DNA from: Firmicutes bacterium ASF500
Lineage (GTDB): Bacteria > Bacillota > Clostridia > Oscillospirales > Oscillospiraceae
Reading direction: 5' to 3'
Length of the DNA stretch: 64,000 nt
NCBI GenBank assembly: GCA_000492175.2
Contig: CP097573.1
Location: 310,001-374,000 of the forward strand
Below, piece after piece: positions 45,898-59,358 of the stretch (positions are counted from its first letter, which is position 1; every line of letters begins with the position of its first letter). A program made the position numbers and the translations under genes. The notes under the pieces are model-generated. The model did no database searches and was not told where the DNA came from. It saw only the letters and a list, made by a program, of their open reading frames with translations.

Positions 45898-46104
45898 TCA
45901 GTTTCTGGGCTGGACCTTGTCGAATGCTGGATTGGTGAGATAGACGTTTCTGGCGTCCATACGATCCTTGCACAGGCGCAGGCATTCACCGAACCGCTGG
46001 AAATGGACAATTTCCCGCTCCCGCAGGAAGCGGATCACATTGTTCACATCCGGGTCGTCGGACAAGCGCAGGATATTGTCATAGGTGAGGCGGGCCTTTT
46101 GCTC
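45898..46104 (-). pseudogene. cotJC: cotJC 3' fragment (spore coat Mn-catalase, C-terminal part), separated by the element
   Basis: The minus frame reads EQKARLTYDNILRLSDDP, then a conserved 'FLREREIVHFQRFGE' segment and the C-terminal end, stopping with TGA at 45898-45900. This is the conserved C-terminal part of CotJC manganese-catalase-type spore coat proteins. It lacks a start. Joined to the 5' part at 58949-59358 across the shared TC core (46103-46104 = 58949-58950), the codon GA|G and the frame are restored, giving 204 residues. Thus the gene is split, not decayed. Confidence 0.85.
46103..46104. mobile_element. Left attachment core of the integrative element
   Basis: Core TC (GA on the coding strand) inside cotJC. 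The cotJC-side arm is to the left; element sequence begins to the right (a short palindrome AAAGT-ACA-ACTTT lies at 46118-46130). Large serine recombinases typically exchange at a 2-bp core with little other identity, as seen here. Confidence 0.6.
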
Positions 46105-46156
46105 TGGTGCAATCTCAAAAGTACAACTTTATGGCCGAAAATGGCGAAAAATCAAG

Positions 46157-46351
46157 TCAAATGGTGTCCGCAATGCGGTCGATTTTGTGTTGAAGGCGTT
46201 CCAGCGTCTTTTGCAGCGCGGCCCGGTCTGCGTTCAAATCGCTGGCGGACAGGCGGGCCAAGGTCAGCATTTGCTCCAGAGTGCGCTCAATCTCGTCCAG
46301 GGCTTGGTCGATGGATTGGACAGACTTTTCAAATTCTTCTTTGGGTGGCAT
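46157..46351 (-). CDS. Small coiled-coil protein downstream of recombinase
   Basis: 64 residues with heptad-like pattern ('FEKSVQSIDQALDEIERTLEQMLTLARLSASDLNADRAALQKTLERLQHKIDRIADTI'). Not a family I recognise. ATG preceded by AAGGAGCATAGACCC. It follows the recombinase by 13 bp and is the element's outermost gene, so it may help excision or be a recombinase partner (inference). Confidence 0.7.
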   Translation of the reverse strand: MPPKEEFEKSVQSIDQALDEIERTLEQMLTLARLSASDLNADRAALQKTLERLQHKIDRIADTI

Positions 46352-46364
46352 GGGTCTATGCTCC

Positions 46365-47918
46365 TTAAAAGTTCCAGTGGATTTCTATGGGAACGTCCTT
46401 TGTTCCAGGGATGCGTTTTCCAACAGTGATGTGGTCAATGAGAATTTCCACGATTTCTCGTGTTAAGTGTTCCAGGTTTACATACCGCTCCACCAAAGAC
46501 TTTCGGTTGTCTCCAACGGCAATTCTGTCCTCCAGTTCCGCAAGCTGCCGTTGTCCGTCCAGCAGGACGCGCTCCAGCCGGGATTTCTCGGAGGAAAACT
46601 CTTTAGAAAGGGCGGAGAAGTCGCTGTCGTTGAGCAGGCCCTTGACCTTATCCATGTATAAATCCCGCAGACCCTTGGCGTACTCGGCGATTCGTTTCTC
46701 ATAGGCGGCGTGGGTGTCCAGAAGCTGCTTTTTCTGCCCTTGCAGATTTTCGCAAAACTCAATGTTCCGCTCCAGCTCGTCCTTGTCCAGATATGCCGCC
46801 GCCAGCCGGTTCAGCTCGTCAATGACCATCCGCTCCAGCTTTTCCACCGAAATGAAGGAGCCGATGCAGGCGTCCTTTGCCACATGGCGGTTAGAGCATT
46901 GGAGATAGTGCCGCCCATGATTTTTAGAAGAACGCATGGTGTAGCCACAGTTGGCGCACCGGGCTTTCCGGGCGAATAGCCCCACAGTACCGCAATCAAA
47001 AGGCTTGGCCCGTTCCGCAACCATGGACTGAACCCGGTTCCAGAGGGGGCGGTCGATGATGGCCTCATGGGTTCCCTCTACACGATACCACTCACTTTGG
47101 GGGCGGGGCTTGTTTTGCTTGGTCTTGTAGGACACGCTGCCATATTTGCCTTGTACCATGTTACCAATATAAATCTCGTTGGTGAGCATATCAGAGATAG
47201 CAAAATACTTCCAGAGAGTGCTGTTTTTCCGCTTGGGCTGCTGGTAGCGCAGGCCGTGGAGACGCTTGTACTCGGTGGGGTTGGGGATGCCACGGTCGTT
47301 GAGCATCCGGGCGATGGCCGTTTTACCATAGCCTTGGGAAAAGAGGGTGAACACCTCCCGGACAACGGCAGCGGCTTCCTCGTCAATAAGCAGATGGCCT
47401 TTTTGGTCGGGGTCCTTCTTGTAGCCATAGAGGGCAAAGGCCCCAATATGAAAACCATTCTGCCGCCGGTTGGTGAGAACGCTGCGGATGTTCTCCGACA
47501 TATCCTCCAGATACCACTCGTTCACCAGCCCATTGATCTGCCGGGACTTCTTATTGCCCTTGTTGGCGGTGTCGGCGTTGTCCACGATGCTGACAAAGCG
47601 GATGCCCCAAATAGGGAAGAGGCCGTGGATGTACTTTTCTACCAGCTCCAACTCACGGGTAAAGCGGGATTGTGTCTTGCAGAGAACGATGTCAAAGCGG
47701 TGAGCCTTGGCATCCTCCAGCAAGCGGTTAAATTCGGGCCGTCTGCGGTCTGAACCTGTGTAATCATCATCACTGTAAAGGTTATAAACTTCCCACCCCT
47801 GTTCCATCGCATATTGCAGCAGCATGGCCTTTTGGTTCTGGATGCTGTTGCTGTCATCGGTTTCAAATTGCTTGTTTCTATCTTCCTCGGATAAACGGCA
47901 GTAGATCGCTGCTTTCAT
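46365..47918 (-). CDS. Large serine recombinase (element integrase)
   Basis: 517 residues. Resolvase catalytic domain with nucleophile Ser10 ('IYCRLSEEDRN'), 'YSDDDYTGSDRRRPEFNRLLEDA' and 'LCKTQSRFTRE'; recombinase domain (160-290, 'GFALYGYKKDPDQKG' type); zinc ribbon with CANCG...C (about 325-355); and a C-terminal coiled coil. Such TndX/TnpX-like enzymes catalyse integration and excision of ICE/IMEs. The second ATG (47918) is favoured since GAGGAG lies 8 bases upstream. It faces outward to the left junction. Its promoter contains a 14-bp inverted repeat. Confidence 0.95.
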   Translation of the reverse strand: MKAAIYCRLSEEDRNKQFETDDSNSIQNQKAMLLQYAMEQGWEVYNLYSDDDYTGSDRRRPEFNRLLEDAKAHRFDIVLCKTQSRFTRELELVEKYIHGLFPIWGIRFVSIVDNADTANKGNKKSRQINGLVNEWYLEDMSENIRSVLTNRRQNGFHIGAFALYGYKKDPDQKGHLLIDEEAAAVVREVFTLFSQGYGKTAIARMLNDRGIPNPTEYKRLHGLRYQQPKRKNSTLWKYFAISDMLTNEIYIGNMVQGKYGSVSYKTKQNKPRPQSEWYRVEGTHEAIIDRPLWNRVQSMVAERAKPFDCGTVGLFARKARCANCGYTMRSSKNHGRHYLQCSNRHVAKDACIGSFISVEKLERMVIDELNRLAAAYLDKDELERNIEFCENLQGQKKQLLDTHAAYEKRIAEYAKGLRDLYMDKVKGLLNDSDFSALSKEFSSEKSRLERVLLDGQRQLAELEDRIAVGDNRKSLVERYVNLEHLTREIVEILIDHITVGKRIPGTKDVPIEIHWNF

Positions 47919-47940
47919 AGTCATATCTCCTCAGAGATAG

Positions 47941-47990
47941 GACAAGCTGTTTCCTGCTTACAGTATAGCACAGAGGAAACAGCTTGTCAC
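47941..47990 (-). promoter_or_regulatory. Recombinase promoter with flanking 14-bp inverted repeat
   Basis: On the minus strand: GTGACA (47985-47990), a 17-base spacer and TATACT (47962-47967). GACAAGCTGTTTCC (47941-47954) and GGAAACAGCTTGTC (47975-47988) are perfect inverted copies bracketing the -10 and covering the start site and spacer, an ideal repressor operator. A further exact copy lies at 58818 near the other end of the element. Confidence 0.75.
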
Positions 47991-47991
47991 A

Positions 47992-48132
47992 TTATTTTTG
48001 CTCGATGGCCTGTTTTCCCTTTTCAAGCTGATTGATTAGCTCGGTCAGCTTGTGCGTGAAATTTTCACGGGTGGTTTCTGTGGTCCCGTCTTTGAAAATG
48101 CTTTTGCATAGCTCCTGTGTCTGCAAATACAT
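47992..48132 (-). CDS. Small hypothetical protein
   Basis: 46 residues starting MYLQTQELCKSIF and ending LINQLEKGKQAIEQK; soluble, C-terminal helix. ATG at 48132 is preceded by GAAAGGCTGGGTG. It fills the gap between the DnaC-like gene and the recombinase promoter. Small proteins with the pattern 'TRENF...LTELINQLEKGK' recur next to serine recombinases of Clostridia elements (impression, not searched). Confidence 0.6.
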   Translation of the reverse strand: MYLQTQELCKSIFKDGTTETTRENFTHKLTELINQLEKGKQAIEQK

Positions 48133-48174
48133 CACCCAGCCTTTCACAACAGACTATGCGAAATTGTTTGTCCA

Positions 48175-49031
48175 TTAGTCATCTGCGGCAGGGGAGTGGG
48201 TGGGCGGTTCCATCAGATTTTTCAGACGTGCCAGCTTGTCCTGCGCTGTGGCTTTACGAAAATTCTCGCCGGAAAAACGGATAGGGGCGCACATTTCCAG
48301 TAAGCGGTCATAGATGCGGGCGTGAGCGGTGTCCTGGGGGTGCTGTAAATCTTGCAGGGACAGGTTGGTGGTGACGATCAGCGGCCTGCGGCTGCGGTAA
48401 CGGCTGTCAACCACGTTGTAGACCTGTTCCAAACCGTACTCCGTCCCACGCTCCATTCCAAAATCGTCAGTATCAGCAGAGGGGCGCGGCAGAGGTGGGT
48501 TATGTACTCGTTCCGGCCCTCGAAGCTGGCGGTCAGGTCGTTCAGTATCAGGGCAAAGTTTGTCATGCGGACGGCCACCTCCTGTTCCATCAGAGCGTTG
48601 GCGATGCAACCGGCGAAATAGCTCTTGCCAGTTCCCACACCTCCCCAGAGCAGATAGCCGATGTTTTCCTCCTGCATGGCCGGCCAGTTCTCAACGTAAA
48701 AGCGGGCATGTTTCATCTGCGGGCATTTGCCGTTGTCGTTGGCAAACGTCCACTCCCGCATAGCCGGGTCGGTAAAGCCCCGGCGTTTCAAGTCGGCCAC
48801 GGTCTGACGGTGACGGCGGGCCTCCTGCTCCGCCGCCTCCCGGTCAAGGCGCTCCTGCTCACAGCGGCAGGGATGGGGGAGCAAGCGGCCCTCCATCGGC
48901 GGGGCCTCCATGCGGAATTGCTTCGGAGTGCGGCACTTGCCACAGTACAAAAGCCCGTCCTCGCCGGTATAGTCCCCCGGTTCCAGCCGGGTCACGGTGA
49001 TACGCTTGATGATGCTGTCAAAATCGTTCAT
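48175..49031 (-). pseudogene. DnaC/IstB-like ATP-binding replication protein, frameshifted
   Basis: The N-terminal part has a Cys cluster ('YCGKCRTPKQF', 'HPCRCEQERLDREA') and then a P-loop 'WGGVGTGKSYFAGCIANALM'. The frame breaks at the Walker B motif: 'APLLIL' continues in the next frame as 'DDFGMERGTEYGLEQVYNVVDSRYRSRRPLIVTTNLSL' to 'PAADD'. One base (C on + near 48468) seems to be missing. Intact homologs load or assist helicase. Start ATG 49031 overlaps the rep stop (ATGA) with AAGGAG upstream. Either inactive or a sequencing error. Confidence 0.85.
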
Positions 49032-49741
49032 AGGCTCTCGCTCTCCTTGCACGAATAGTCAGATATGCCGCCCTTGCGCCTGTCCGCTTTGGCCCAGCGG
49101 CGAATGGTGGCGGCGTGGCTCTTGTAGTTCTTTCCGGTGGAGGCCATATATTCAGACAAACGCTCGATGTACTCCTGCCAGACGGCGGGGAAGTCGGCTT
49201 GCAGTTCGGCAACCTCGGCCTCCGTCAGAAAGACATTCTCATAACGGCCCCGCGCTGGCGGGCGCTCACTCACTCCACTCAAGTTACTAATTCTCAAGTT
49301 ATTATTACTCATGTTATTAGGGGACAGTTTTCTGTCCGTCATAGGGACAACTTTTTGTCCATCAGTGGGACAAGTTTCTTTCCCTCTATGGGACAATTTT
49401 TTGTCCGTCAGTAGGACAATATCTCGTCCATCTGGTATCTTCACATAAATGCGATTGGGCTGGGAAAATCCTTGCCTCCTGCGCTCAATCAGCCCAACCG
49501 TTTCCAGTTCAGTCAATGCGTTCTTCACAGTCATGGGGCTGCGGTCAACCGCATTAGCGATTTTGCAGACGGGAAAGACGATATAGATTTGCCCCTCATC
49601 GTCCTGCCAGCCATTGGCAAGGGAGAGGTTAGCCCTGTCCAGCAGGACGGCGTACAGCAGCTTGGCAAACTGCGTCAAATCCGCCTCCATCAGAAAGCGG
49701 GGATAGGGCAGGTAAGGCGGTAATTTGGTGTCGGCGGTCAT
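49028..49741 (-). CDS. Replication initiator protein A-like (RepA_N type)
   Basis: 237 residues. N-terminal winged-helix domain ('FLMEADLTQFAKLLYAVLLDRANLSLANGWQDDEGQIYIVFPVCKIANAVDRSPMTVKNALTELETVGLIERRRQGFSQPNRIYV') typical of RepA_N initiators of low-GC plasmids and ICEs. A variable linker is encoded by the 23-bp iterons; a C-terminal helical region follows ('AELQADFPAVWQEYIERLSEYMASTGKNYKSHAATIRRW'). ATG 49741 is taken; a GTG at 49762 would sit on its own Shine-Dalgarno. Indicates the excised circle can replicate. Confidence 0.85.
   Translation of the reverse strand: MTADTKLPPYLPYPRFLMEADLTQFAKLLYAVLLDRANLSLANGWQDDEGQIYIVFPVCKIANAVDRSPMTVKNALTELETVGLIERRRQGFSQPNRIYVKIPDGRDIVLLTDKKLSHRGKETCPTDGQKVVPMTDRKLSPNNMSNNNLRISNLSGVSERPPARGRYENVFLTEAEVAELQADFPAVWQEYIERLSEYMASTGKNYKSHAATIRRWAKADRRKGGISDYSCKESESL
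49322..49436. repeat. Five 23-bp iteron-like repeats inside the rep gene (putative origin)
   Basis: GGACA-starting units begin at 49322, 49345, 49368, 49391 and 49414, exactly 23 bp apart (consensus GGACAANTTTTTGTCC plus NTCAGTG). Each unit is itself a partial palindrome (GGACAA...TTGTCC). Since 23 is not a multiple of three, the repeat is conserved as DNA, not as peptide. RepA_N replicons are known to carry the origin as repeats within rep. Confidence 0.8.
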
Positions 49742-49880
49742 GTAATCGGCAATCGTGTTCACCTCCCGTTTGTAACGGCTTAGAGGGCCGTTTTAGGGCC
49801 TCGGAATGATAACATACAGCCCCCCTATCGACCACGCCCAGAAAGTCCCGTAATATCAAGGCTTTTTGGGGCCTAAAGCG

Positions 49881-50219
49881 TTACATACCAGCCCTATGTC
49901 GGCGCACTCGCTCACGGGTCTTTCTCCGCCGCTCCTGTTCGGCACAATCAGGGCAGTATTTGGCTCGGTTCGACTTGGGGATGTACCAGCCGCCGCACAG
50001 GACGCATTTCTTCATGTCCTCCCGATGGAGCAGAGCGGCACACAGACTTTCATCCTGCGGCAGCACAGTGGCCCGGAACCATCGGCAGATCAGCGAATAG
50101 GAAATAGCCTGCGGGCAGACACATTCCTCCCCATCGTCCAGTAGGAGGCAGTTGCCGTCCTGGTAGTTGCAACAGCTATGTACCAGCCGCCGGACGGCAC
50201 GATATTGCTGATAGGTCAT
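49881..50219 (-). CDS. Cysteine-rich VLP domain protein
   Basis: 112 residues with the family's Cys pattern: 'LVHSCCNYQDGNCLLLDDGEECVCPQAISYSLICRWFRATVLPQDESLCAALL' and a second zinc-ribbon-like 'KKCVLCGGWYIPKSNRAKYCPDCA' with basic tail. Found regularly beside MobQ relaxases in Firmicutes mobilizable elements; probably DNA-binding, role unknown. Overlaps the relaxase stop (ATGA). Confidence 0.85.
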   Translation of the reverse strand: MTYQQYRAVRRLVHSCCNYQDGNCLLLDDGEECVCPQAISYSLICRWFRATVLPQDESLCAALLHREDMKKCVLCGGWYIPKSNRAKYCPDCAEQERRRKTRERVRRHRAGM

Positions 50220-51646
50220 CGCTCCTGTTCCTCCCAGTGCTGGGTCTGGCTCTCCCTGGCAAGACGCTCGGCGGTCTTTTTCAAGGTTTCCACCGCTTTG
50301 ATGTCCTCACGCATGGCCCGCATTTTCAGATAATCGGCCTCCTTCTCGGCGGTCAGTTTTTGGGCCTCTCCCCTCCACGCCTTGGGGGTGATGGCCTCGC
50401 CGGATGCTTTCAGCGTGTCCAAATAGCGGACGGCGGCATCGAACAGGGCAAGGTCGGCGCTGTGCCGCTGCTTAAATTGCTCCCGCTTGGCCGGGACAAC
50501 CTTGTCCAGCTTTTGGCGGGCAGGCTTGTATTTCTGGTACTGCGCCCACATTTCCAGCCGTTCAGTCAGAGCGGAAATGCGCCGCTCCTTACTCACGATT
50601 TTGCTGCGTAAGTCGTAATAATCGCTGTTCATGGCGGCAACCTTGTCAAATAATTCCGGCATGGATTTGATGCCGTTCTCCATCAGAAAATTGAAAAGTT
50701 TTGCGTCCGCTTTGAGCGACTTGACCTTGGCATATTGGGAAGTTGGGGCGGTGCCCTGCCTCGCCTGGAAAAGAAAATCCATGATGCTCTCCCGGCCCTG
50801 GGGCTGGGCAGATTGCTCCTTGCTCCAGTTGTAAAGTCGAGTAATGCGGGCTTTGATTTCTTTCAGCAACTTGTTGTCGGCGGCGATTTCCCGGTTGATG
50901 TTGCCTTTCACTGTGGCGATGCCGCGCCGCTCCATTTGGCAGGCGGCAGGCCCCATGTGGACGCTGGGAATAATGTCAACGCCCTGGCGCTTATAGCTGC
51001 GGTGGTCGATGCGCTCCGGCCTGCCTGCGGCCTCTAATGCCCTGTTGGTGTAAGTGGCCCATAGCGCCCGCCATTTCTCGGCGTTCTCTCGCCGGTTCCA
51101 GTCGGTGGTGTCCTCCCGATGGTTCTTCCAGCCGCCTTTGCCATCCGGGATGCGCTGGCCCTGGCCGTTCAAATCGTACACCTTGCGGCATTTTGCTCCC
51201 CACTTGCCGTCCTCTCGAATGGGGCGGATGGTGAGCATGATATGGGCGTGAGGGTTGCCGGTTCCTTTATCGTGGATGGCAAAGTCGGCGCACATTCCAG
51301 CATCCACAAAATTTTCCTTGACGAACGCTCGGACAAGGGCAAGCTGCTCCGCCCTGGACAACTCAACCGGCAAGGCCACTTCAATTTCCCTGGCAAGCTG
51401 GGCGGTGCTGGATTTTTCGATTTCCTCCACACTGTTCCAGAGGGTGGAGCGGTCTGCGAACGCTGGCGGGGCGTGGGCGGGCAGCATGATTTCTGTATGG
51501 ACAACACCGCCCTTGCGGGTGTAGTCGTGGGTCATGCCGTCCCACTCGTTTACCAGCTTTTCGCCGCTCCGATAGGCGGCAGCGGCCACAGCGGACTTGC
51601 CCTGGCTCCGCTGGATAATTTGGATGGGACAATGGAAAATTGCCGT
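50216..51646 (-). CDS. MobQ (MobA/MobL) family relaxase with ACG at the start position
   Basis: 476 residues if read from 51646. The relaxase nicks oriT and pilots the strand. N-terminus 'AIFHCPIQIIQRSQGKSAVAAAAYRSGE' is the family start, normally preceded by Met; here the codon is ACG (51644-51646) with GGAGG 9 bases upstream. The nucleophile is probably Tyr25; the metal triad is at H125, H133 and H135 ('FAIHDKGTGNPHAHIML'). A long helical C-terminus follows. The first standard start in frame is GTG 51589, which would cut off 19 residues before the Tyr. Either a rare non-AUG start or a start-codon mutation. Confidence 0.88.
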   Translation of the reverse strand, partial: TAIFHCPIQIIQRSQGKSAVAAAAYRSGEKLVNEWDGMTHDYTRKGGVVHTEIMLPAHAPPAFADRSTLWNSVEEIEKSSTAQLAREIEVALPVELSRAEQLALVRAFVKENFVDAGMCADFAIHDKGTGNPHAHIMLTIRPIREDGKWGAKCRKVYDLNGQGQRIPDGKGGWKNHREDTTDWNRRENAEKWRALWATYTNRALEAAGRPERIDHRSYKRQGVDIIPSVHMGPAACQMERRGIATVKGNINREIAADNKLLKEIKARITRLYNWSKEQSAQPQGRESIMDFLFQARQGTAPTSQYAKVKSLKADAKLFNFLMENGIKSMPELFDKVAAMNSDYYDLRSKIVSKERRISALTERLEMWAQYQKYKPARQKLDKVVPAKREQFKQRHSADLALFDAAVRYLDTLKASGEAITPKAWRGEAQKLTAEKEADYLKMRAMREDIKAVETLKKTAERLARESQTQHWEEQER

Positions 51647-51680
51647 AAAAACGCACCTCCTACCGGCAACGGATATTGGC

Positions 51681-51830
51681 CCCGCCGGAAAGTGACAGAC
51701 GCGAAGCGGGTGTCACTTTCCGGCGGGGGTGCGGGGGTTTGGGGGTGTCAACCCCCATCGCGTCCGTAGGACGCAACAGCCCCCGGCAGGGCGCACGACA
51801 CCGGCCACGGTGTATAAGTGCGCCATTCGG
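51681..51830 (+). other. Origin of transfer (oriT) of MobQ type
   Basis: A 17-bp perfect inverted repeat (51681-51697 / 51711-51727) and two small hairpins (TGGGGGT/ACCCCCA, GCGTCC/GGACGC) precede ACACCG-N4-CGGTGT (51798-51813). Directly after this is ATAAGTGCGCC (51814-51824), the nic-region consensus of MobQ origins such as pSK41/pGO1 and close to RSF1010. It lies directly upstream of the relaxase gene, as in other MobQ systems. This covers the 190-bp space without genes. Confidence 0.85.
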
Positions 51831-51838
51831 ACTAAGGA

Positions 51839-52108
51839 TTACTCCGCAACCTCGTTTTTGGACGCTTTTTCCGCCAACTTCTGTGCTCCTGGCAGGCGTG
51901 AGAGGGCAATCAAAAACGCCTTGACTTCCTCGCCCTCCATGTTGACAACGGCGGGGAAAATGCCCTCTAAAATGGCCCCACGGCCAATCAGCCGGTGCGT
52001 CCTGGCCCTGCGTTCTTCGCTGCGCTTTTTGTTCAGCAAAATCTTCTGGCGGTTCTGCAACTGGCCGATTTTCTTCTCAACCTCCTGGGGCTTGTCCACG
52101 GCTATCAA
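51839..52108 (-). CDS. Small mobilization-region protein (DUF3847-like)
   Basis: 89 residues, basic helical: 'VEKKIGQLQNRQKILLNKKRSEERRARTHRLIGRGAILEGIFPAVVNMEGEEVKAFLIALSRLPGAQKLAEK'. The 'KRSEERRARTHRL' stretch fits DUF3847 proteins found beside relaxases. Possibly a nicking accessory factor. Ends 9 bp before the oriT nic sequence. ATGA-type overlap with the sigma-like gene upstream. Confidence 0.75.
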   Translation of the reverse strand: MIAVDKPQEVEKKIGQLQNRQKILLNKKRSEERRARTHRLIGRGAILEGIFPAVVNMEGEEVKAFLIALSRLPGAQKLAEKASKNEVAE

Positions 52109-52566
52109 TCCTCCTTTTCCAGCCAGCCATTTTTGGCAAAAATCTTCTGTAATTTTTTGAGTGCGCCGGTCACGCTGTCACAGGCACAGCTCCCGCTGAT
52201 GCCCTCATCCGCCGCAATCTCTCGAAACTTTTTCTCCAAGGAAAACCGGGCATGGAGCCGCCTCGCCTGGGTGGGGGATAGCTGGGAGATGGCCTCCGCC
52301 AAATGCTCCAACAGCAATTCTTCAGCGGCCTCGTCAATCTCTCGAATAATCAAATCCTCCGGGGACTGTACCAGGAACATGGCATGGTTCTCAATGCCGG
52401 GGCTGCAATCCATGGAGTAAACATGATAGTAACTTTTCCGGCCCTCCTGCCGGTTCTCGTAGAGCCGACATTCCTCCATGGCGGCGGCAACCTCGTCCGG
52501 CACTTCAATGAACGTGTCCTTTGTGTAGAGCGGGTAATAGTGCTTTCGCAAATTGATGATTGCCAT
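52105..52566 (-). CDS. Sigma factor-like regulator, paralog 1
   Basis: 153 residues. N-terminal 'AIINLRKHYYPLYTKDTFIEVPDEVAAAMEECR' is shared with the neighbouring paralog. The C-terminal part ('ISQLSPTQARRLHARFSLEKKFREIAADEGISGSCACDSVTGALKKLQKIF') has the layout of sigma-70 region 4, a helix-turn-helix. Such proteins occur in ICE/IME regulatory modules of Clostridia. ATG 52566. The target promoters are unknown. Confidence 0.8.
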   Translation of the reverse strand: MAIINLRKHYYPLYTKDTFIEVPDEVAAAMEECRLYENRQEGRKSYYHVYSMDCSPGIENHAMFLVQSPEDLIIREIDEAAEELLLEHLAEAISQLSPTQARRLHARFSLEKKFREIAADEGISGSCACDSVTGALKKLQKIFAKNGWLEKED

Positions 52567-52573
52567 GCCGCCC

Positions 52574-53026
52574 TCACTTCCCCTGGGGGTGGTCTGCGTA
52601 ATAGCGGCGGAGATTGCACAGGCCACGGCGGATGGACAGACACACGTTGCTGTTGTGGACGCGCTCACGGTCTGCGATCTGCTGCTGGGTCAGCCCGCCC
52701 AGATAGTAGGCACAGACACGGCGGGCCTGGGTGGGGGTGGCGTAGGCCAGGGCCTCCCGCAAGGCAGCGGCCAGCCGGTCACGCTCGGCCTGTTCCTCCG
52801 CCAGCATGACAAGCTGCTCCGGGGACGGGCTGTGTTCCAAGGCATAGTTCTCCGTCCAGTCGAAAGCGTCCAGCGAGTAGAACGCTCGATGATACCGCTT
52901 GCGGCGCTCATAGTTCCGCATTTCCCTGACGGACTGGCACAGCACGTCAAAGACTTCCTCGCTGACCTCCACCAGCTTGTCCTGCTGACAGTGGGGGTAG
53001 TGGAGCCGTAGGTTGATGATTTTCAT
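52574..53026 (-). CDS. Sigma factor-like regulator, paralog 2
   Basis: 150 residues. 'KIINLRLHYPHCQQDKLVEVSEEVFDVLCQSVREMRNYERRKRYHRAFYSLDAFDWTENYALEHSPSPEQLVMLAEEQ' and region-4-like 'YATPTQARRVCAYYLGGLTQQQIADRERVHNSNVCLSIRRGLCNLRRYY'. ATG follows TAGGAGGTCAAA. Seven bp before paralog 1. Confidence 0.82.
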   Translation of the reverse strand: MKIINLRLHYPHCQQDKLVEVSEEVFDVLCQSVREMRNYERRKRYHRAFYSLDAFDWTENYALEHSPSPEQLVMLAEEQAERDRLAAALREALAYATPTQARRVCAYYLGGLTQQQIADRERVHNSNVCLSIRRGLCNLRRYYADHPQGK

Positions 53027-53045
53027 TTTGACCTCCTAAATGACA

Positions 53046-53079
53046 GGAGGGACAAGCAGCCGAAACTGCTTGTCCCTCC
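53046..53079 (-). terminator. Intercistronic hairpin between sigma-like genes
   Basis: A perfect 14-bp stem (GGAGGGACAAGCAG / CTGCTTGTCCCTCC) with a 6-base loop between paralogs 3 and 2. No T-run, so it may be a processing or attenuating structure. Confidence 0.5.
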
Positions 53080-53136
53080 CGGTAATGGAGCAAATGCCCC
53101 TCACCTGGTAGCCACTTAGGGGGTCTATCGTACACC

Positions 53137-53529
53137 CTATTTCCAAAATTTCTTGAAAATATTTTTGACACCGCTGACAGACTTTTCAACTGCGCTCTTG
53201 GAGCAACCGCACATCTTGGCAATCTCCGCATAGCTGAAATCATGCAGGGCATAGAGCAAGAACCGCTCCCGCTGGGTGGGAGTGCAGAGGGCCAACACCG
53301 CCAGAATTTCATCCAGTGTTTCCTGCTGGCAGACCAATTCCTCCGGGGTCGCGCAATAGGGCAAGCGGCCCTCGGTGTTGATTATGTACTCGTCAAACTC
53401 TCGCCCGTCCCAATGCCGCCGTTGTTCATGGGCAAGGTTCTCCGCCTTGTGGTCGGCCTGGGTGAGATATTCGTAGACCTCCACCGAAACGGACACGGCC
53501 TGCCCATAGTAGTTGATGGTAATTTTCAT
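53137..53529 (-). CDS. Sigma factor-like regulator, paralog 3
   Basis: 130 residues. 'KITINYYGQAVSVSVEVYEYLTQADHKAENLAHEQRRHWDGREFDEYII' and region-4-like C-terminus 'ALCTPTQRERFLLYALHDFSYAEIAKMCGCSKSAVEKSVSGVKNIFKKFWK'. ATG 53529 follows GGAGGAAAGGACG. First of three tandem paralogs that share the plan beta-hairpin N-terminus, acidic middle and region-4-like HTH. Confidence 0.85.
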   Translation of the reverse strand: MKITINYYGQAVSVSVEVYEYLTQADHKAENLAHEQRRHWDGREFDEYIINTEGRLPYCATPEELVCQQETLDEILAVLALCTPTQRERFLLYALHDFSYAEIAKMCGCSKSAVEKSVSGVKNIFKKFWK

Positions 53530-53722
53530 CGTCCTTTCCTCCGTTGAGATTTTTGGGGTCTGAACGGAGGGGGCGGGGATCGGCAGCGAAGCAGGCATCG
53601 CTGGCCCAAAAACAGAAAAGCACCCGCATGGTGCAAGACCATTCGGGCGCGGGACATAGTATTATGAGCCGTCAGAAAACGACTATTTTCGCATACTTGG
53701 GTAGGGGATGCCGCTGTGGATG

Positions 53723-53764
53723 TCAGGCTTTTTTTGACAAGTGCCTATCTACCTGTAATCGCAT
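53723..53764 (-). CDS. Possible 13-residue leader peptide with SD in a hairpin loop
   Basis: MRLQVDRHLSKKA, ATG 53764, behind AGGAGGTCGCCGCC. TGGCGGC and GCCGCCA (53764-53770 / 53782-53788) form a stem whose loop presents the ribosome binding site and whose arm includes part of the start codon. It lies in the 387-bp stretch 53530-53916, where no larger gene is seen. Confidence 0.35.
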   Translation of the reverse strand: MRLQVDRHLSKKA

Positions 53765-53862
53765 GGCGGCGACCTCCTGTTGCCGCCAACTGAGCATAGA
53801 AAATCGACGGCTTTGAATAGTCAAAACCGCCGACAGAAATAGTTTTTGGACACAGAAAATTG

Positions 53863-53906
53863 ATCTGCCCAGCAGCGGTTTTTTTCTTTTCTGCCGCTGG
53901 GCAGAT
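53863..53906. terminator. Terminator-like hairpin after the ABC operon
   Basis: ATCTGCCCAGC / GCTGGGCAGAT, 11-bp perfect stem with T-rich loop, 11 bases after the stop of the last ABC permease gene; GTTTTTCTG follows on the + strand. Confidence 0.65.
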
Positions 53907-53916
53907 GTTTTTCTGA

Positions 53917-54930
53917 TTATAGAGTTACTTGCCTTTTATGATTGGCGGAAATCAAAACATAGAGTGCAAACCACACAATACAGTGGACAGCCAAAATACC
54001 AACGTCCTTTACCGCCGTTCCCATGTTCCCAGCAGACAGGGCCATAATGCCGTCAAAGGCAGGATGGGATGGAACGATATTGCAGATGACCGCCAACGGC
54101 CCGCTCGCCCCAATCAGACCGCATAAAATGGGTACTGCCAGGAACAGCAGCATGACGATCTTGATATAGACCACGCCGATCATCAGACCCTCGGAGAGCT
54201 TACCGATAAACAGGCCAATCAGTGCAGCCACAAAGGACGACAGCACAATCAGCGCCAGCAGCAGCCCGAAATTTTGCCAAGACAATCGGAAACAGATACA
54301 CGCCGTTACAATAGAGGACAGACTGCCAAAGAGAAAGCCCACTACGACTTTCTGAAAAATGTACTGGCTGGGTGTCATAGGAAGGATTTCGTTGATGAAA
54401 GCTACGCCGTCCTCTTTTTCGGAAATGATGTTCATGGCATTGAACGTACAGCCCATAAACATAGCCACGATCAGCACGGCGGGGATGAAAATGTCTTGAA
54501 AACTTTCCAGAATGTCAGGGCGTTCCATCGTCAAAACTTTCACCAGCTCCGCTTCTCCCCGCTGTTCATAGAGAGCCGGGAGTGTAGCCGCCGCCTGCTG
54601 AAAAATGTCCAGCTCGTCCCCGCTGATTGAAGTTTTGATGCTGTCCCCGTTTGCGTTCACGCCAATGACATTGGTAGACGGTTCTTTGATGGCGGCGGTC
54701 AGTTCTTCCGGCGTTTGGTAGGCCATCACCGGGCCGTACCGCTCCAACCATGTGACTGTCTGCGGGGAGAGGTCGTTTTCCAGTACGCCGAAGTGCAGTT
54801 CCCCCAAGGTGGACAGATCAATGGAACCCATAAAATTCAATGCCACAGCCACCAGGATGGGCAGCAGGAACGTCATCAAGCAGAATTTATCCCGCAAAAC
54901 ACTTTTCAGCTGATATTTTAATCCCTTCAC
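53917..54930 (-). CDS. ABC-2 type transporter permease
   Basis: 337 residues, about six membrane segments: one near the N-terminus ('FCLMTFLLPILVAVALNFMG'), an extracellular loop of about 120 residues, then five ('IFIPAVLIVAMFMGCTFNAMNIISEKEDGVAFINEILPMTPSQYIF...'). Third gene of the cargo ABC operon; the large extracellular domain resembles antimicrobial-peptide/lantibiotic exporters. Substrate unknown. Confidence 0.85.
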   Translation of the reverse strand: MKGLKYQLKSVLRDKFCLMTFLLPILVAVALNFMGSIDLSTLGELHFGVLENDLSPQTVTWLERYGPVMAYQTPEELTAAIKEPSTNVIGVNANGDSIKTSISGDELDIFQQAAATLPALYEQRGEAELVKVLTMERPDILESFQDIFIPAVLIVAMFMGCTFNAMNIISEKEDGVAFINEILPMTPSQYIFQKVVVGFLFGSLSSIVTACICFRLSWQNFGLLLALIVLSSFVAALIGLFIGKLSEGLMIGVVYIKIVMLLFLAVPILCGLIGASGPLAVICNIVPSHPAFDGIMALSAGNMGTAVKDVGILAVHCIVWFALYVLISANHKRQVTL

Positions 54931-54933
54931 GCA

Positions 54934-55926
54934 TCACCCCTCCTTTCCAATCTCCCGGTGAAATGCAAGCCGCACCACCAGGAACAGCAGCATAATCGCA
55001 CACACGGCACCGATGTAGTAAACAGGCGAAACAGACATTCTGAAATAGGCGTTTTTCAGGCCCATATAGACGTGATAGAACGGATGATAACCAATCCAGT
55101 CAAATTTGATTGATGTATTGGCGGATAAAAATACGGGGGTCGCGGCAAAAATGGCAATCACCAGATAGGCCAGCGTAAATTGCCGAAAATCTTTCAGCAG
55201 CAGGGCGCAAAGCAGCCCCACCAAGGCCATCATCAGCGACAGGATGGCTGTCTGGAGCAGGATAGCGGGCAGTACCGCCGCCCCGTCGGCAAGCCCTACG
55301 TTCAGCAGGGTAAGCAGCACCGCAAAGGCCAGATCAGAGAGCAGGAACACCGCCAGCTTGGACAGGAGGAACAAGTCTTTTCGCGCTGGGAGAATGGCGT
55401 GGACACGAATGACCCCCATGCCCTTTTCCTTGAACAGTACGGCGGCGATGCCCAAAAATCCCACAGCGGCCAGCTCAAAAAACAGCAGCTCGCAGGTGAT
55501 CTCTTTCCTTGCCTTTTGTTCCGGCGTATTTGCGCCAAGTACCTCCGGGGCAGGGCTGGCCGAGGGCCACAGCAGGGACAGGGCGTAGTCCGCCCGGTGG
55601 CGGTCAACGTGTTCCGCTCCTTTGTAGAGTACCACCCGCACCTCCCCGGCGCTGGCATCCAGCCCCACGCCGTTGGCATCGGAGAGCAAGGCGGTGTCCA
55701 TTTCCTCCATAGAGGAAACAATCTGTACCAGGGGCGATTTTTCCGTCTGTGTCCCGGTGGGGTCGTACAGATACACATTATAGGGCGGCATCTGCATGAA
55801 GCGGATATAGCCCAAGTTCACATAGGCTGTATAAAGGACAAGAAACCCTATTGCCATCAAGAAAAATTTCCCCGATACCAGCATCCGGCAGTCTTTTTTG
55901 AACAGGGCGCAAAAGCCTTTTCCCAT
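54934..55926 (-). CDS. ABC transporter permease
   Basis: 330 residues, about six membrane segments with a large extracytoplasmic region after the first helix (35-160). 'VLFKEKGMGVIRVHAILPARKDLFLLSKLAVFLLSDLAFAVLL' is typical of ABC-2 permeases. Overlaps the ATPase stop by one base and is followed three bases later by the second permease. Confidence 0.83.
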   Translation of the reverse strand: MGKGFCALFKKDCRMLVSGKFFLMAIGFLVLYTAYVNLGYIRFMQMPPYNVYLYDPTGTQTEKSPLVQIVSSMEEMDTALLSDANGVGLDASAGEVRVVLYKGAEHVDRHRADYALSLLWPSASPAPEVLGANTPEQKARKEITCELLFFELAAVGFLGIAAVLFKEKGMGVIRVHAILPARKDLFLLSKLAVFLLSDLAFAVLLTLLNVGLADGAAVLPAILLQTAILSLMMALVGLLCALLLKDFRQFTLAYLVIAIFAATPVFLSANTSIKFDWIGYHPFYHVYMGLKNAYFRMSVSPVYYIGAVCAIMLLFLVVRLAFHREIGKEG

Positions 55927-56774
55927 CAGGACAGCCCCCTCCCCGTGTACTGGATGAACATATCCTCCAAGGTCGGCTCCTGGGAGTGGATGCTGATGAT
56001 TTCGTCGTGGGCAAAGGGGATGCCCGCTTCCAGCTCCGGGGCCTCTATGGTTTTCGCTTCCCGCTGTCCCTGATACAGATAGTCGATCACGACCCGGTGA
56101 TTACTGTTTTTCTCTTTCAGACGCTTAGGCGTATCCAGGGCTACCAAATTTCCATTGGAGATAAAGGCCACCCGGTCACACAGTAAATCGGCGTCCACCA
56201 TGTTATGGGTGGTGACAAAAACCGTCGTTCCCTTTTTGCGCTCCTGCTCAATGATCTTTCGGAACAGTACCGCTCCGGAGGGGTCAAGGCCGCTGGTGGG
56301 TTCGTCCAGGAACAGCAGCCGGGGATTGCTCACCAGCGCACGCGCCATGCTTACCCGCTGGCGCATCCCCTTGGAGTAGGAGGACACCGGCTTTTTCAGA
56401 AAGTCCGGCTTAAATTCCAGCGCATCCAGCAGTTCCCCCACATCCCGCCGTTGCTCCCTGGGATAGAACGAGGCAAAGTAGTTCAGATTGTCCACGGCAC
56501 TCAAATTGGCGTACAGGTAGGGAAACTCAAACAGGACGCCGATTTTCTGAAAAAATTCCTGGCCGTGGGCGGCGGAAATATCCTGCCCGAACAGGGAGAC
56601 TTTTCCACCGTGACCTTTTAATATCCCGGTGAGTATCTTTTGCGTTGTGGACTTCCCGGAGCCATTTGGCCCCAGGAAGCCGAAGATTTCCCCGTCCTCC
56701 ACGGTGAAGTCCAGACCGTGGAGGGCCTGCTTGTCTTTGCTGTAGGAGAATGTCAGGTTCTTGACCTCAATCAT
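55926..56774 (-). CDS. ABC transporter ATP-binding protein
   Basis: 282 residues. Walker A 'GPNGSGKST', Q-loop 'LFEFPYLYANLS', signature 'YSKGMRQRVSMARALV', Walker B 'LLFLDEPTSGLDPSG', switch His 'TTHNMVD', plus a C-terminal extension as in drug/bacteriocin-immunity exporters. ATGA overlap with the small membrane protein upstream. Confidence 0.93.
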   Translation of the reverse strand: MIEVKNLTFSYSKDKQALHGLDFTVEDGEIFGFLGPNGSGKSTTQKILTGILKGHGGKVSLFGQDISAAHGQEFFQKIGVLFEFPYLYANLSAVDNLNYFASFYPREQRRDVGELLDALEFKPDFLKKPVSSYSKGMRQRVSMARALVSNPRLLFLDEPTSGLDPSGAVLFRKIIEQERKKGTTVFVTTHNMVDADLLCDRVAFISNGNLVALDTPKRLKEKNSNHRVVIDYLYQGQREAKTIEAPELEAGIPFAHDEIISIHSQEPTLEDMFIQYTGRGLS

Positions 56775-56917
56775 TCGTCGTCACCCCATTTCCCACGCTT
56801 ATTTCTCTCCTGCTGGCGCTTGCTCCACCACTTCATAAACTTGACCTTGAACGGGATAGAGATAATCAGCGCCGCAGCGATCACCAGCCACCAGTACCAC
56901 GCTAAACCTAAGAACAT
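56771..56917 (-). CDS. Small membrane protein of the ABC operon
   Basis: 48 residues: one N-terminal membrane helix (FLGLAWYWWLVIAAALIISI) and a basic tail (KFMKWWSKRQQERNKRGKW) ending in Asp-Asp-Glu. ATG 56917 follows AAGGAGGGTTTTTT. The stop overlaps the ATPase start (ATGA). First gene of the regulated operon; likely a transporter accessory subunit or a regulator of the kinase (inference). Confidence 0.75.
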   Translation of the reverse strand: MFLGLAWYWWLVIAAALIISIPFKVKFMKWWSKRQQERNKRGKWGDDE

Positions 56918-56925
56918 AAAAAACC

Positions 56926-56946
56926 CTCCTTATTTGTGATAAGGAG
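56926..56946 (-). promoter_or_regulatory. Hairpin that includes the ribosome binding site
   Basis: CTCCTTAT and ATAAGGAG form an 8-bp stem with loop CACAA on the minus strand, then GGGTTTTTT and ATG. The 3' arm is the Shine-Dalgarno of the 48-residue gene. The hairpin plus T6 also resembles a terminator, so it could attenuate the operon. Confidence 0.5.
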
Positions 56947-56961
56947 AGTTTAGGGTTGCGG

Positions 56962-57001
56962 TGTGAAATTGGTGTGATGCCGCTGTGAAATCCGTGTGAA
57001 A
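56962..57001 (-). promoter_or_regulatory. Response-regulator binding array: four repeats at 11-bp phase
   Basis: On the + strand TGTGAAA, TGTGATG, TGTGAAA and TGTGAAA start at 56962, 56973, 56984 and 56995, exactly one helical turn apart. OmpR/PhoB-type regulators bind such tandem sites. The array ends at the stop of the kinase gene and precedes the ABC operon, so the operon's response regulator is the obvious candidate. Confidence 0.75.
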
Positions 57002-58072
57002 TTATTCTTTGACAGGGATGGAGAAATAGAACCGCACCCCACCCGCTTGGTTTTCTGCACCGTAGGGTAAATTTTGCATGGATAGGATTTGTGCCACAAT
57101 GGACAGCCCCAGCCCGGAGCCGCTGTACTCTGCGCCGCTGTCCCGGTAGAATTTTGTCCATATTTTGGACAGATCACTTTCCGGAATGGGTCGGCCCTGA
57201 TTGAAGATGGAGAAATGCAACACACCATCATCCACTGTCAGTTCCAGCCGCAGAGCGCCGCCAGGATACACATTTTTCTTGGCGTTGACGATCAGGTTGC
57301 CCAAGACCTGCTCCATGCGCCGCCGGTCAGTTTCCACAAAAACCTTTTGCTCCGGCAGCTCATATTGCAGCTCAAAGTCGGTGTCCGGGGCATCGATCAG
57401 AAGCCGTCCGGCTACTGTTTCCACCAGCTCCACAAAGTCAAAGCGGGTGACATCCAAGTCTGCGGCCCCGCTCTCTAATGCTGACAGATCCAACAAAGTC
57501 ACGATCAGATCGTTCATGCGCTCTACTTCGGAAACAATGACTTGGGCGTATTTCTGCTTTTTGGCCTCGTCCGCTTCGTCCTGCAAGCCCTCGGCGTAGG
57601 CCCGGATGATACCCAGCGGGGTTTTCATCTCATGGGATAGGCTGTCCACCAGCTCTTTGCGCTCAAACAGGAGAAGCCGCTCCTTTTCCACGTCCTTTTC
57701 AAGCTGCGTGTTTGCGCCCTCCAACCGGGCAAGGGCCTGTTGCAGATTTTCAGCCATTGTGTTCAGGCTGGCAGACAGTTCTCCAAATTCATCGGTTGAA
57801 ACGAGATTGCAGGGGGTGGAAAAGTCCAGCCCCGCCATACGCTTTGCGGAGGCGTTCAGTTTGTCAATCGGTTTCGTGATAAAGCGGCCCATAAAAAGGT
57901 CAATCCCAATAATCAGCAGAAAAACAAACCCCAGCCAGATTAGAAAAGAAGTATCTTCGCTGACCGGCAGGCCGGTAGAGAGGACGTAGGAAAAAATCAG
58001 CGCAACCCCCGCCAGCTTAGAGAGCATCAAGATCTTTTTCCGAACAGTATGGAGGGAAAACAGCTCTTTCAT
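57002..58072 (-). CDS. Sensor histidine kinase
   Basis: 356 residues. Two membrane helices (about 14-32 and 44-62) with only a short extracytoplasmic loop between, HAMP-like linker (63-118), dimerization box with His147 ('DSLSHEMKTPLG') and ATPase domain (N box 'NLIVNAKKNV', G2 'GSGLGLSIV'). The minimal sensor loop is typical of intramembrane-sensing kinases that respond to cell-envelope antimicrobials via the transporter. ATGA overlap with the regulator gene. Confidence 0.93.
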   Translation of the reverse strand: MKELFSLHTVRKKILMLSKLAGVALIFSYVLSTGLPVSEDTSFLIWLGFVFLLIIGIDLFMGRFITKPIDKLNASAKRMAGLDFSTPCNLVSTDEFGELSASLNTMAENLQQALARLEGANTQLEKDVEKERLLLFERKELVDSLSHEMKTPLGIIRAYAEGLQDEADEAKKQKYAQVIVSEVERMNDLIVTLLDLSALESGAADLDVTRFDFVELVETVAGRLLIDAPDTDFELQYELPEQKVFVETDRRRMEQVLGNLIVNAKKNVYPGGALRLELTVDDGVLHFSIFNQGRPIPESDLSKIWTKFYRDSGAEYSGSGLGLSIVAQILSMQNLPYGAENQAGGVRFYFSIPVKE

Positions 58073-58737
58073 ACCACTACCTCGAATTTATAGCCGGAGC
58101 GGATCAGCGTGACAATATGCCGCCCCTCGTCCCCCAGCTTTTGCCGCAGGGTCTTGATGTGGGTGTCCACGGTTCGGGTCGTCCCTTCAAAGTCATAACC
58201 CCAAACACGGTTTAGAAGCTGCTCCCGATTGAATATCTGCCCAGGGTTTGCCATCAGAAAGGCGAGTAACTCATACTCCTTATGGGTCAAGGTGATCTCC
58301 TGCCCGTCAAGATAGACCTTGTGCGCGTTGGAGTGGAGCATGATTTTCCCGGCGGTGATCGCTCCGACAGAAGCGGGGGAGGAACGGCGCAGGAGTGCGT
58401 TCACCTTTGCCAGTAGCAGCTTGGGGCTGAATGGCTTTGTCATATAGTCGTCCGCACCATAGTCATAGCCTTTCAGTTTATCGTCCTCCGCACTCTTAGC
58501 GGTCAACATGATAATGGGCATATCGCTCATTTCCCGCGCCATCTTGCAGACAGAAAAACCGTCCAAATGGGGCATCATCACATCCAAGATCATCAAATCC
58601 ATAGGATGATTTTTCAGCGTGACAAGGGCATCTATACCATCGTCGGCAGTAAAGCAGGTATGTCCGCCCTTTCGCATATAGTCCACAATAATGTCCTGCA
58701 TGGCTTTTTCATCTTCGACAATCAGAATATTTGCCAC
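58069..58737 (-). CDS. OmpR-family response regulator
   Basis: 222 residues. Receiver domain with Asp52 as phosphoacceptor ('DLMILDVMMPHLDG'), acidic pair 'VEDE', Lys in 'TKPFSPK'; C-terminal winged helix ('EITLTHKEYELLAFLMANPGQIFNREQLLNRVWGYDFEGTTRTVDTHIKTLRQKLG'). GTG start at 58737 behind AAGAGGTGATTTTT. Own promoter at 58763-58791. Probably binds the 11-bp array before the ABC operon. Confidence 0.94.
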   Translation of the reverse strand: MANILIVEDEKAMQDIIVDYMRKGGHTCFTADDGIDALVTLKNHPMDLMILDVMMPHLDGFSVCKMAREMSDMPIIMLTAKSAEDDKLKGYDYGADDYMTKPFSPKLLLAKVNALLRRSSPASVGAITAGKIMLHSNAHKVYLDGQEITLTHKEYELLAFLMANPGQIFNREQLLNRVWGYDFEGTTRTVDTHIKTLRQKLGDEGRHIVTLIRSGYKFEVVV

Positions 58738-58762
58738 AAAAATCACCTCTTTCCCATAAAGC

Positions 58763-58791
58763 ATTATAATTCTGTCCAAGCGAGAATACAA
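58763..58791 (-). promoter_or_regulatory. Promoter of the two-component system
   Basis: On the minus strand: TTGTAT (58786-58791), a 17-base spacer and TATAAT (58763-58768). Confidence 0.7.
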
Positions 58792-58817
58792 GCGGCAAAA
58801 TCAGAGGGGGAGGGGTT

Positions 58818-58890
58818 GGAAACAGCTTGTCCCATCGAAAATTTTAACAGGTTGTCCTTACACCATCGCCGCCGGAAAAGGCTTGTCCCA
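58818..58890 (+). repeat. Three related repeats near the right end of the element
   Basis: GGAAACAGCTTGTCCCA (58818-58834), AACAGGTTGTCC (58846-58857) and GGAAAAGGCTTGTCCCA (58874-58890). The first contains the exact 14-mer of the recombinase operator at 47975-47988. Placed 60-130 bp inside the right junction they could be accessory sites for excision or a shared repressor. Confidence 0.6.
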
Positions 58891-59358
58891 CCAACGATTC
58901 AGTGGTTTCAACGGTTTCCGGCCACGTTGTTCTTGTATGGTTGCCCCATCCGCTGCCAAGTCCTCTGTCAGGTCGGCGATGGGGTCGCCGGTGGACTGGA
59001 TCGAGCCGGCGCTCCAGGGGAAGCCGGAAGCGGCGGTGGGATAGACGCCGGTGGTGTGGTCCACGAAGTAGGGGGCGAAGGCGGGGTTGGCCTGAACCTC
59101 CTCGTCAGTGAGGTTTCGGGTCAGCTGGTGGACAACAGCCGCCACCATTTCCATGTGGCCCAGCTCCTCAGTCCCGATATCGGTGAGCAGCCCTTTGGCC
59201 TCCGGGTAGGGCATGGAGTAGCGCTGGGATAGGTAGCGCATGGAGGCGCCTAATTCGCCGTCCGGACCACCGTACTGACTGATAATAAAAGAAGCCAGCT
59301 TGGGGTTTGGTGTGGCGATTTTTACTGGGAATTGCAGCTTTTTTTCATAGTGGAACAT
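58858..59358 (-). pseudogene. cotJC: cotJC 5' fragment (spore coat Mn-catalase, N-terminal part) running into the element
   Basis: Residues 1-136 are genuine CotJC ('MFHYEKKLQFPVKIATPNPKLASFIISQYGGPDGELGASMRYLSQRYSMPYPEAKGLLTDIGTEELGHMEM', metal ligands in EELGHME). After 'DPIADLTEDLAA' the frame enters element DNA at 58949-58950 and continues for 30 foreign residues to a stop. The conserved 'EQKAR...' C-terminal part is at 45898-46104. Starts two bases after cotJA/B. Without excision the product lacks about one third, including a helix of the four-helix bundle. Confidence 0.9.
58949..58950. mobile_element. Right attachment core of the integrative element
   Basis: Core TC equivalent to 46103-46104. 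Codon 137 of cotJC (GA-) is split here. Little other identity exists between the two junctions, as expected for attL/attR of a serine recombinase. Confidence 0.6.

Follow-up and report, generated by a model that had tools for sequence, protein, structure and literature searches.

The window analysed here, a stretch of 64,000 nucleotides from Firmicutes bacterium ASF500 (contig CP097573.1, positions 310,001 to 374,000), holds on its minus strand a spore coat gene, cotJC, that is broken at 58949/58950 and 46103/46104 by an element of 12,846 bp with a 2-bp core, GA (Table 1). The original prediction had read two distant fragments as one CotJC protein, placed the boundaries at 46104 and 58949 with a shared 2-bp core and stated that joining restores codon 137 and the sequence AAEQKAR. 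Each of these points is borne out: GA lies at 46103-46104 and 58949-58950, and joining the flanks in silico by script gives a CotJC of 204 residues reading ...EDLAAEQKAR.... As it stands, the open reading frame (ORF) of the 5′ part runs on for 30 codons inside the element and ends at 58858, and intact cotJC genes of uninterrupted relatives, when aligned, read GA[GA]CA[AG]AA at the position of the break. A join error in the assembly appears very unlikely, because the genome is one contig and the identical break recurs in many other assemblies. In this single contig of 3.67 Mb the Mn-catalase profile PF05067 matched only the two cotJC halves; a second intact cotJC, the case that the original prediction had set against itself, was not found at the sensitivity of that profile. 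Use of the interrupted gene in sporulation is indicated by the cotJC profile match and by a CATA-type promoter before the cotJ operon, the sporulation role itself being drawn from the literature on relatives.

In the cleanest copies of the element both arms make a palindrome, GATTGCACCA-GA-TGGTGCAATC. A joined arm pair (attP) at L195:11598, between two recombinase copies, agrees with this reading of the attachment (att) sites, and a second joined attP is found at L189:1580, where a tandem array is deduced from the positions of the cotJC pieces. A search with the 5′ part found cotJC running into the same element end in several species of the genus, and an alignment of selected genus pieces (17 N-sides and 19 C-sides) puts every break at the GA of codon 137. 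Intact CotJC finds a match in 56 of 64 genus genomes, of which 17 have one full-length piece, 36 have a piece that stops at one of four sites and the remaining 3 (G009, G058 and G073) are unclear, these counts being taken from a table read by hand, with several split calls made from one piece only in draft genomes. The four sites lie near codons 32, 62-66, 137 and 176, with the break about 10 codons earlier at locus L142 (site 2). In an alignment to the Mn-catalase 1jku they fall at, or no more than 5 residues from, the positions matching E35, E66/H69, E148 and H181, which we take to be the metal ligands of that enzyme. Given that codon 137 aligns with E148, the element of the window cuts cotJC at the codon of a predicted metal-binding residue, Glu137.

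Elements at the other sites carry different serine recombinases in L137, L141, L142, L152, L166 and L226, as judged by a crude pattern that had no match in L134, L138, L140, L143, L144 and L151, some of which hold a partial element. All 15 near-full-length genus matches to the recombinase of the window at 60% identity or more lie on the same contig as a cotJC piece; a partial match in G053 (61%, 188 residues) belongs to another group and was left out of this count, and a partial match in G076 (90%) adjoins cotJC. A recombinase group about 45% identical adjoins the start of a PRK06851-like ATPase gene at 9 of 9 genus loci (L078-L086) and in the window's own genome (L268:17781-18029, G000:C1 about 3079780-3081759). 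In 7 of the 9 loci the upstream 700 bp, a span wide enough to give chance matches in AT-rich controls as well, contain ATA-N16/18-CATA. The ATPase gene is possibly a second gene split in the same manner.

The association extends well beyond the genus. From at least 566 relatives of the recombinase in named genomes the best 80, of 76-98% identity, were kept; their hosts include Flintibacter, Pseudoflavonifractor, Anaerotignum, Blautia, Roseburia, Anaerotruncus, Parablautia, Diplocloster and Oscillibacter. Two of the carriers are Flintibacter muris DSM 110149 (L179), with the same split, and Anaerotignum lactatifermentans DSM 14214 (L184). At the loci of 75 of these 80, tblastn boundaries show a piece of cotJC that breaks near codon 137, and the recombinase is oriented towards the 5′ part rather than the 3′ part in 13 of the 75. 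Among the remaining five, L241 and L247 stop at a contig end, L189 is an apparent tandem array with a 3′ cotJC part on the same contig just past the fetched stretch, and no cotJC assignment was made for L188. At L207:6112-6800 the recombinase of this group has as its neighbour an ORF named by eye as carboxypeptidase-like, in a genome with no PF05067 match. A cotJC piece also occurs in 6 of 15 IMG/VR loci. When 46 carrier genomes selected from the 80 were searched, 44 had cotJC pieces, 40 had both codon-137 halves and 12 had three or more pieces; cotJC lies in three ordered pieces on one contig in Blautia sp. An249 and in four pieces on four contigs in G108. Three profile matches hold stop codons, of which those in G093 and G122 come from a match that apparently overruns the joint or the gene end, while the stop in G103 may be real. 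Weak partial Mn-catalase matches lie in a long ORF in G091, G099, G104 and G116. In the pair L232/L234 (Diplocloster and Clostridium fessum) synonymous differences per site (pS) in the recombinase are 0 and nonsynonymous differences (pN) 0.001, against a pS of 0.84 in cotJC, and from this divergence among relatives of the window element the family is judged to move between hosts.

A small ORF of about 48 residues precedes the recombinase. It was found in 59 of 92 recombinase upstream regions by a strict pattern and in 80 by a looser one, 66 remaining once near-duplicates were removed, and it is retained even in L248, an element of about 3.2 kb. It has no informative Pfam or NCBIfam match, and neither the window copy nor three others matched PF14202 (TnpW). 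Upstream of it, a KMATA...CATA block scores at least 12 in 54 of 66 elements against 5.3% of shuffles, and strict ATA-N17-CATA is present in 48 of the 66 non-redundant elements, against 47 of 1950 windows drawn at random from these loci and 0 of 30, at exact positions, upstream of genus TnpW matches (27 of these 30 being above the Pfam cut-off and 22 non-redundant). Columns of the sigmaE-type block outside this anchor are also conserved, such as C at -12 in 86% of 65, and the spacing and both boxes are constant although much of the intervening sequence varies. The recombinase itself follows a strict sigmaA-type promoter in 26 of 75 upstream regions against 3 of 3750 shuffles, and the region folds strongly, at a mean of -25.8 kcal/mol against -14.6 kcal/mol for shuffles. 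The cotJ operon is preceded by a sigmaK-type promoter, AC-N16/17-CATANNNT, in 16 of 19 cases (shuffles, 28 of 1900). In C. difficile the -35 element is ATA in sigmaE promoters and AC in sigmaK promoters, and the cotJB2-cotD operon is decreased in a sigK mutant (PMC3789822). A SpoIIID site overlapping the sigmaE-type promoter was dropped as a candidate, WWRRACARNY being matched in 6 of 65 blocks. The signature in family members may place a candidate directionality factor under a mother-cell promoter, with CTA at the corresponding position of the window copy.

Table 1. Features of the interrupted cotJC locus and its element, in window positions
Feature	Position	Strand	Remarks
cotJC 5′ part	58949..59358	-	Codons 1-136 and GA of codon 137; Mn-catalase profile 1-155
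cotJC 3′ part	45898..46104	-	Codon 137 to stop
Intervening element	46103..58950	-	12,846 bp; GA core at each end
attL	58930..58970	-	Host GCAGCGGA then element arm TGGGGCAACC; GA core 58949-58950
attR	46085..46125	-	Element arm GATTGCACCAGA then host GCAAAAGG; GA core 46103-46104
64-aa helical ORF	46157..46351	-	Between recombinase and attR
Large serine recombinase	46365..47924	-	519 aa; Resolvase, Recombinase, Zn ribbon, DUF4368
SigmaA-type promoter	47941..47990	-	GTGACA-N17-TATACT, within inverted repeat ahead of recombinase
Small ORF, candidate directionality factor	47992..48147	-	51 aa as called; probable start is ATG near 48132
SigmaE-like block GACTAATGGACAAACAATTTCGCATAGTCT	48151..48180	-	-35 is CTA instead of the usual ATA
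DnaC/IstB-like ATPase	48175..49052	-	Two overlapping frames; gene broken or sequencing error
RepA_N replication initiator	49028..49762	-	Pfam
MobA/MobL (MobQ) relaxase	50216..51589	-	Pfam/NCBIfam
Cargo ABC-2 type exporter	53917..56774	-	Two permeases and ATPase
Cargo histidine kinase and response regulator	57002..58791	-	Domain search

The description of the insertion as a mobilizable element with its own large serine recombinase on the same strand also held, since a relaxase, RepA and the recombinase are present; with both a relaxase and a site-specific recombinase it is classed as an integrative mobilizable element. No conjugation machine was found among those window ORFs that were scanned with Pfam, and a plasmid search returned a single match of 7% coverage. 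The 64-aa ORF between the recombinase and attR was rejected as a directionality factor: it is not a conserved part, because a recombinase-cotJC gap of about 24 bp in some relatives leaves no room for it. The cargo at 53917-58791, an exporter and a two-component system, resembles peptide-antibiotic response modules. An Rfam scan gave three matches, all sub-threshold, among them SQ2397 (cis-regulator of HTH factor) at 53785-53953 on the minus strand, scoring 52.3 bits where the gathering threshold is 100. Elements at site 3 range from about 3 to 29 kb. Of six small elements whose ORFs were read and in part run through Pfam, three (L248, L199 and L246) retain the recombinase and the small ORF, and no relaxase or phage gene was recognised in them.

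The clean reading frame had been offered as a sign that excision may be regulated. That reasoning was rejected, because any conservative insertion by a serine integrase restores the frame automatically, and the clean frame is therefore no evidence of regulation. Regulated excision itself stands on other grounds and is supported by the sole copy of cotJC, its unbroken halves, the small elements with an intact recombinase and the sigmaE-type signature on a conserved small ORF. It is likely that these mobilizable elements are excised in the mother cell by means of a directionality factor made under sigmaE. During growth, the element would sit at the Glu137 codon of cotJC, able to move between species. 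Once active in the mother cell, RNA polymerase with sigmaE would read the small ORF beside the recombinase, and the encoded protein would serve as recombination directionality factor; the recombinase, supplied from its own sigmaA-type promoter, would then excise the element. In this way cotJC would be restored ahead of transcription from the later cotJ promoter, giving a probable order of excision under sigmaE followed by transcription under sigmaK, and the spore chromosome would retain the element. Comparison of the sequences makes the target, the att sites with the mechanism of insertion, the transfer between hosts, the promoter signatures and the sole copy appear well supported; we infer that excision occurs, that it is specific to the mother cell and that the small ORF supplies the directionality factor.

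A number of points weigh against excision in the mother cell. The 66 elements behind the promoter counts are related by descent, so they are not independent, the clade of the window element has CTA and not ATA at -35, the small ORF evolves fast (pN/pS 0.515), and 49 of the 75 recombinase upstream regions miss the strict sigmaA pattern. An exact attP pattern applied to the 64 genus genomes matched one attL only and no excision product; in viral contigs it matched at least 120 stretches. The two joined attP sites found lie in tandem arrays (L195, and L189 by deduction). TndX, of the DUF4368-bearing group, is reportedly required and sufficient for excision (title of a study cited in PMC11222575), and such an enzyme may therefore do without a separate helper. 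The cotJC gene of B. subtilis is assigned to sigmaE (PMC3416734), and there the gap in time between excision and transcription would vanish. In C. difficile, cotCB and cotD mutants are described as without significant coat defect (PMC11222575), and CotJC is described as having a catalase activity that is irrelevant to coat assembly (PMC3533761). The gene may be dispensable, so that the pressure to rebuild it may be weak. Finally, in the 11 closest genus pairs (pS below 0.45) the recombinase pS is lower than that of cotJC in 10 and equal in 1, and the unbroken halves could reflect young insertions, because the near-identical recombinases of L232/L234 show recent transfer.

These last observations, with the relaxase and RepA of the window element, are what favours the most durable of the alternatives, namely that an ordinary mobile element lands in a dispensable cotJC and is soon lost, the halves being intact since the insertions are young and no developmental control being involved. 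In the first 136 codons of cotJC, pN/pS is 0.095 among split genes (13 genes, 78 pairs; G065, G066 and G055 excluded), 0.086 among genes unsplit there (16 genes, 120 pairs, including G005 and G053, which break at site 4, and G009, which meets a contig edge) and 0.089 across the two (208 pairs). Thus 36 of 56 genus genomes are split, and yet the 5′ part has no relaxation, which speaks against this alternative. The recombinase is under strong constraint (pN/pS 0.04-0.06 among G000, G003, G021, G066 and G071), and 85 of 85 recombinases examined have no stop codon, a count that is biased because the loci were picked by full matches and from which L195 was dropped for a broken match. Purifying selection on cotJC while it is split is nevertheless not proven, and the pair G000/G071, with an equal pS of 0.216, was rejected as proof of it, the att flanks and recombinase-attR gaps being different. 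In G009, a decayed split copy of cotJC (G009:C54, L102) has a recombinase with two TGA codons and the other copy is whole up to the contig edge, which may be a picture of decay when a spare cotJC exists. Further against an ordinary element in a dispensable gene are the sigmaE-type signature, present in 48 of 66 elements and in 0 of 30 controls, and the small elements that keep a recombinase although no mobility gene is recognised in them. This explanation is considered rather unlikely.

It is more doubtful still that random excision at a low rate in growing cells supplies whole cotJC from a mixed population, the CATA block driving the small ORF in some other capacity. The sigmaA-type promoter that precedes 26 of 75 recombinases would suit this scenario, as would the yin element of C. 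botulinum, of which a single culture contained the integrated and the excised form (PMC10747680); however, the 64 genus assemblies contain no excised form recognisable by the one exact pattern, and the sigmaE-type block is left unexplained. An assembly join error, or a second gene supplying the function of cotJC, can be set aside as extremely improbable: another full-length family member does occur in 6 of 46 carriers (G091, G100, G102, G103, G118 and G120), but the window genome is one contig with no other PF05067 match and its junction recurs in many assemblies.

Excision in the mother cell under sigmaE control thus remains the preferred reading, and it opens onto a wider proposal that is put forward tentatively, as a serious possibility short of an expectation. 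In many gut Clostridia cotJC may exist as separate pieces that the mother cell reassembles: as many as three independent elements near metal-ligand codons would all have to leave to yield one enzyme, a new family of small proteins made under sigmaE would give the reaction its direction, and excision under sigmaE would precede transcription under sigmaK. If so, elements that are still mobile could occupy a conserved gene without much burden to themselves or the host. One coat gene is the apparent recurrent target across Oscillospiraceae, Lachnospiraceae and others, at four sites and for several recombinase families. Should excision be developmental, this would be an unusually widespread case and one exploited by a mobilizable element, several excisions would be needed for one protein, and the small ORF would represent a new candidate family of directionality factors, partnered with a recombinase that is site-specific although its clade is regarded as multi-targeting.

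Intervening elements have been reported in sigK, spsM, gerE, spoVFB, spoVR and yabG (PMC4191935, PMC5595907, PMC10747680, PMC6957869, PMC5025042). A literature search aimed at an interruption of cotJC, mostly at the level of titles and covering few subscription papers, found no report of one; in C. difficile R20291, phage phi027 is a neighbour of a CotJC-like catalase gene and does not interrupt it (among PMC11222575, PMC3416734 and PMC3533761). In the skin element of C. difficile, the serine recombinase CD1231 is driven by sigmaA, the directionality factor CD1234 is under sigmaE, and removal restores sigK (PMC5025042). The likeness lies in the splitting of a mother-cell gene, a serine recombinase with a sigmaA promoter, a small gene of sigmaE type and restoration of the gene by removal, whereas the target here is a coat enzyme and there a sigma factor, CD1234 also needs SpoIIID while a SpoIIID-like pattern matched 6 of 65 blocks here, and the present element has a relaxase, RepA and a small ORF with no family match. 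The gin element in gerE of B. cereus (GirC/GirX) is likewise a non-phage intervening element with a serine recombinase and an extra factor; it differs in its gene, in having three recombinase genes and in being reported from some strains of the B. cereus group (PMC5595907).

The recombinase of the window shares its Resolvase, Recombinase, Zn ribbon and DUF4368 domains with TnpX and TndX, a clade described as multi-targeting, DUF4368 being found in 0.73% of site-specific enzymes (PMC10083194). The cotJC recombinase group differs in being strongly tied to one site. Joining of genes linked to development is also seen in the cyanobacterial nif/fdxN elements (XisF), in heterocysts and not in spores, and the recombinase matches the NCBIfam model of XisF below threshold, at 90 bits against 375. 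In SPbeta of B. subtilis, an active element within the sporulation gene spsM, the integrase SprA is under sigmaA and the factor SprB is driven in the mother cell from a sigmaE/K promoter (PMC6957869), which is the arrangement proposed for cotJC. SPbeta is a phage, in contrast to the elements here of about 3 to 29 kb, of which up to three occur per gene. It is also far larger than the cotJC elements. In summary, the cotJC system would work in the manner of skin and SPbeta, and would differ from them in the mobilizable nature of the element, in its target, in its spread and in the splitting of one gene several times over.

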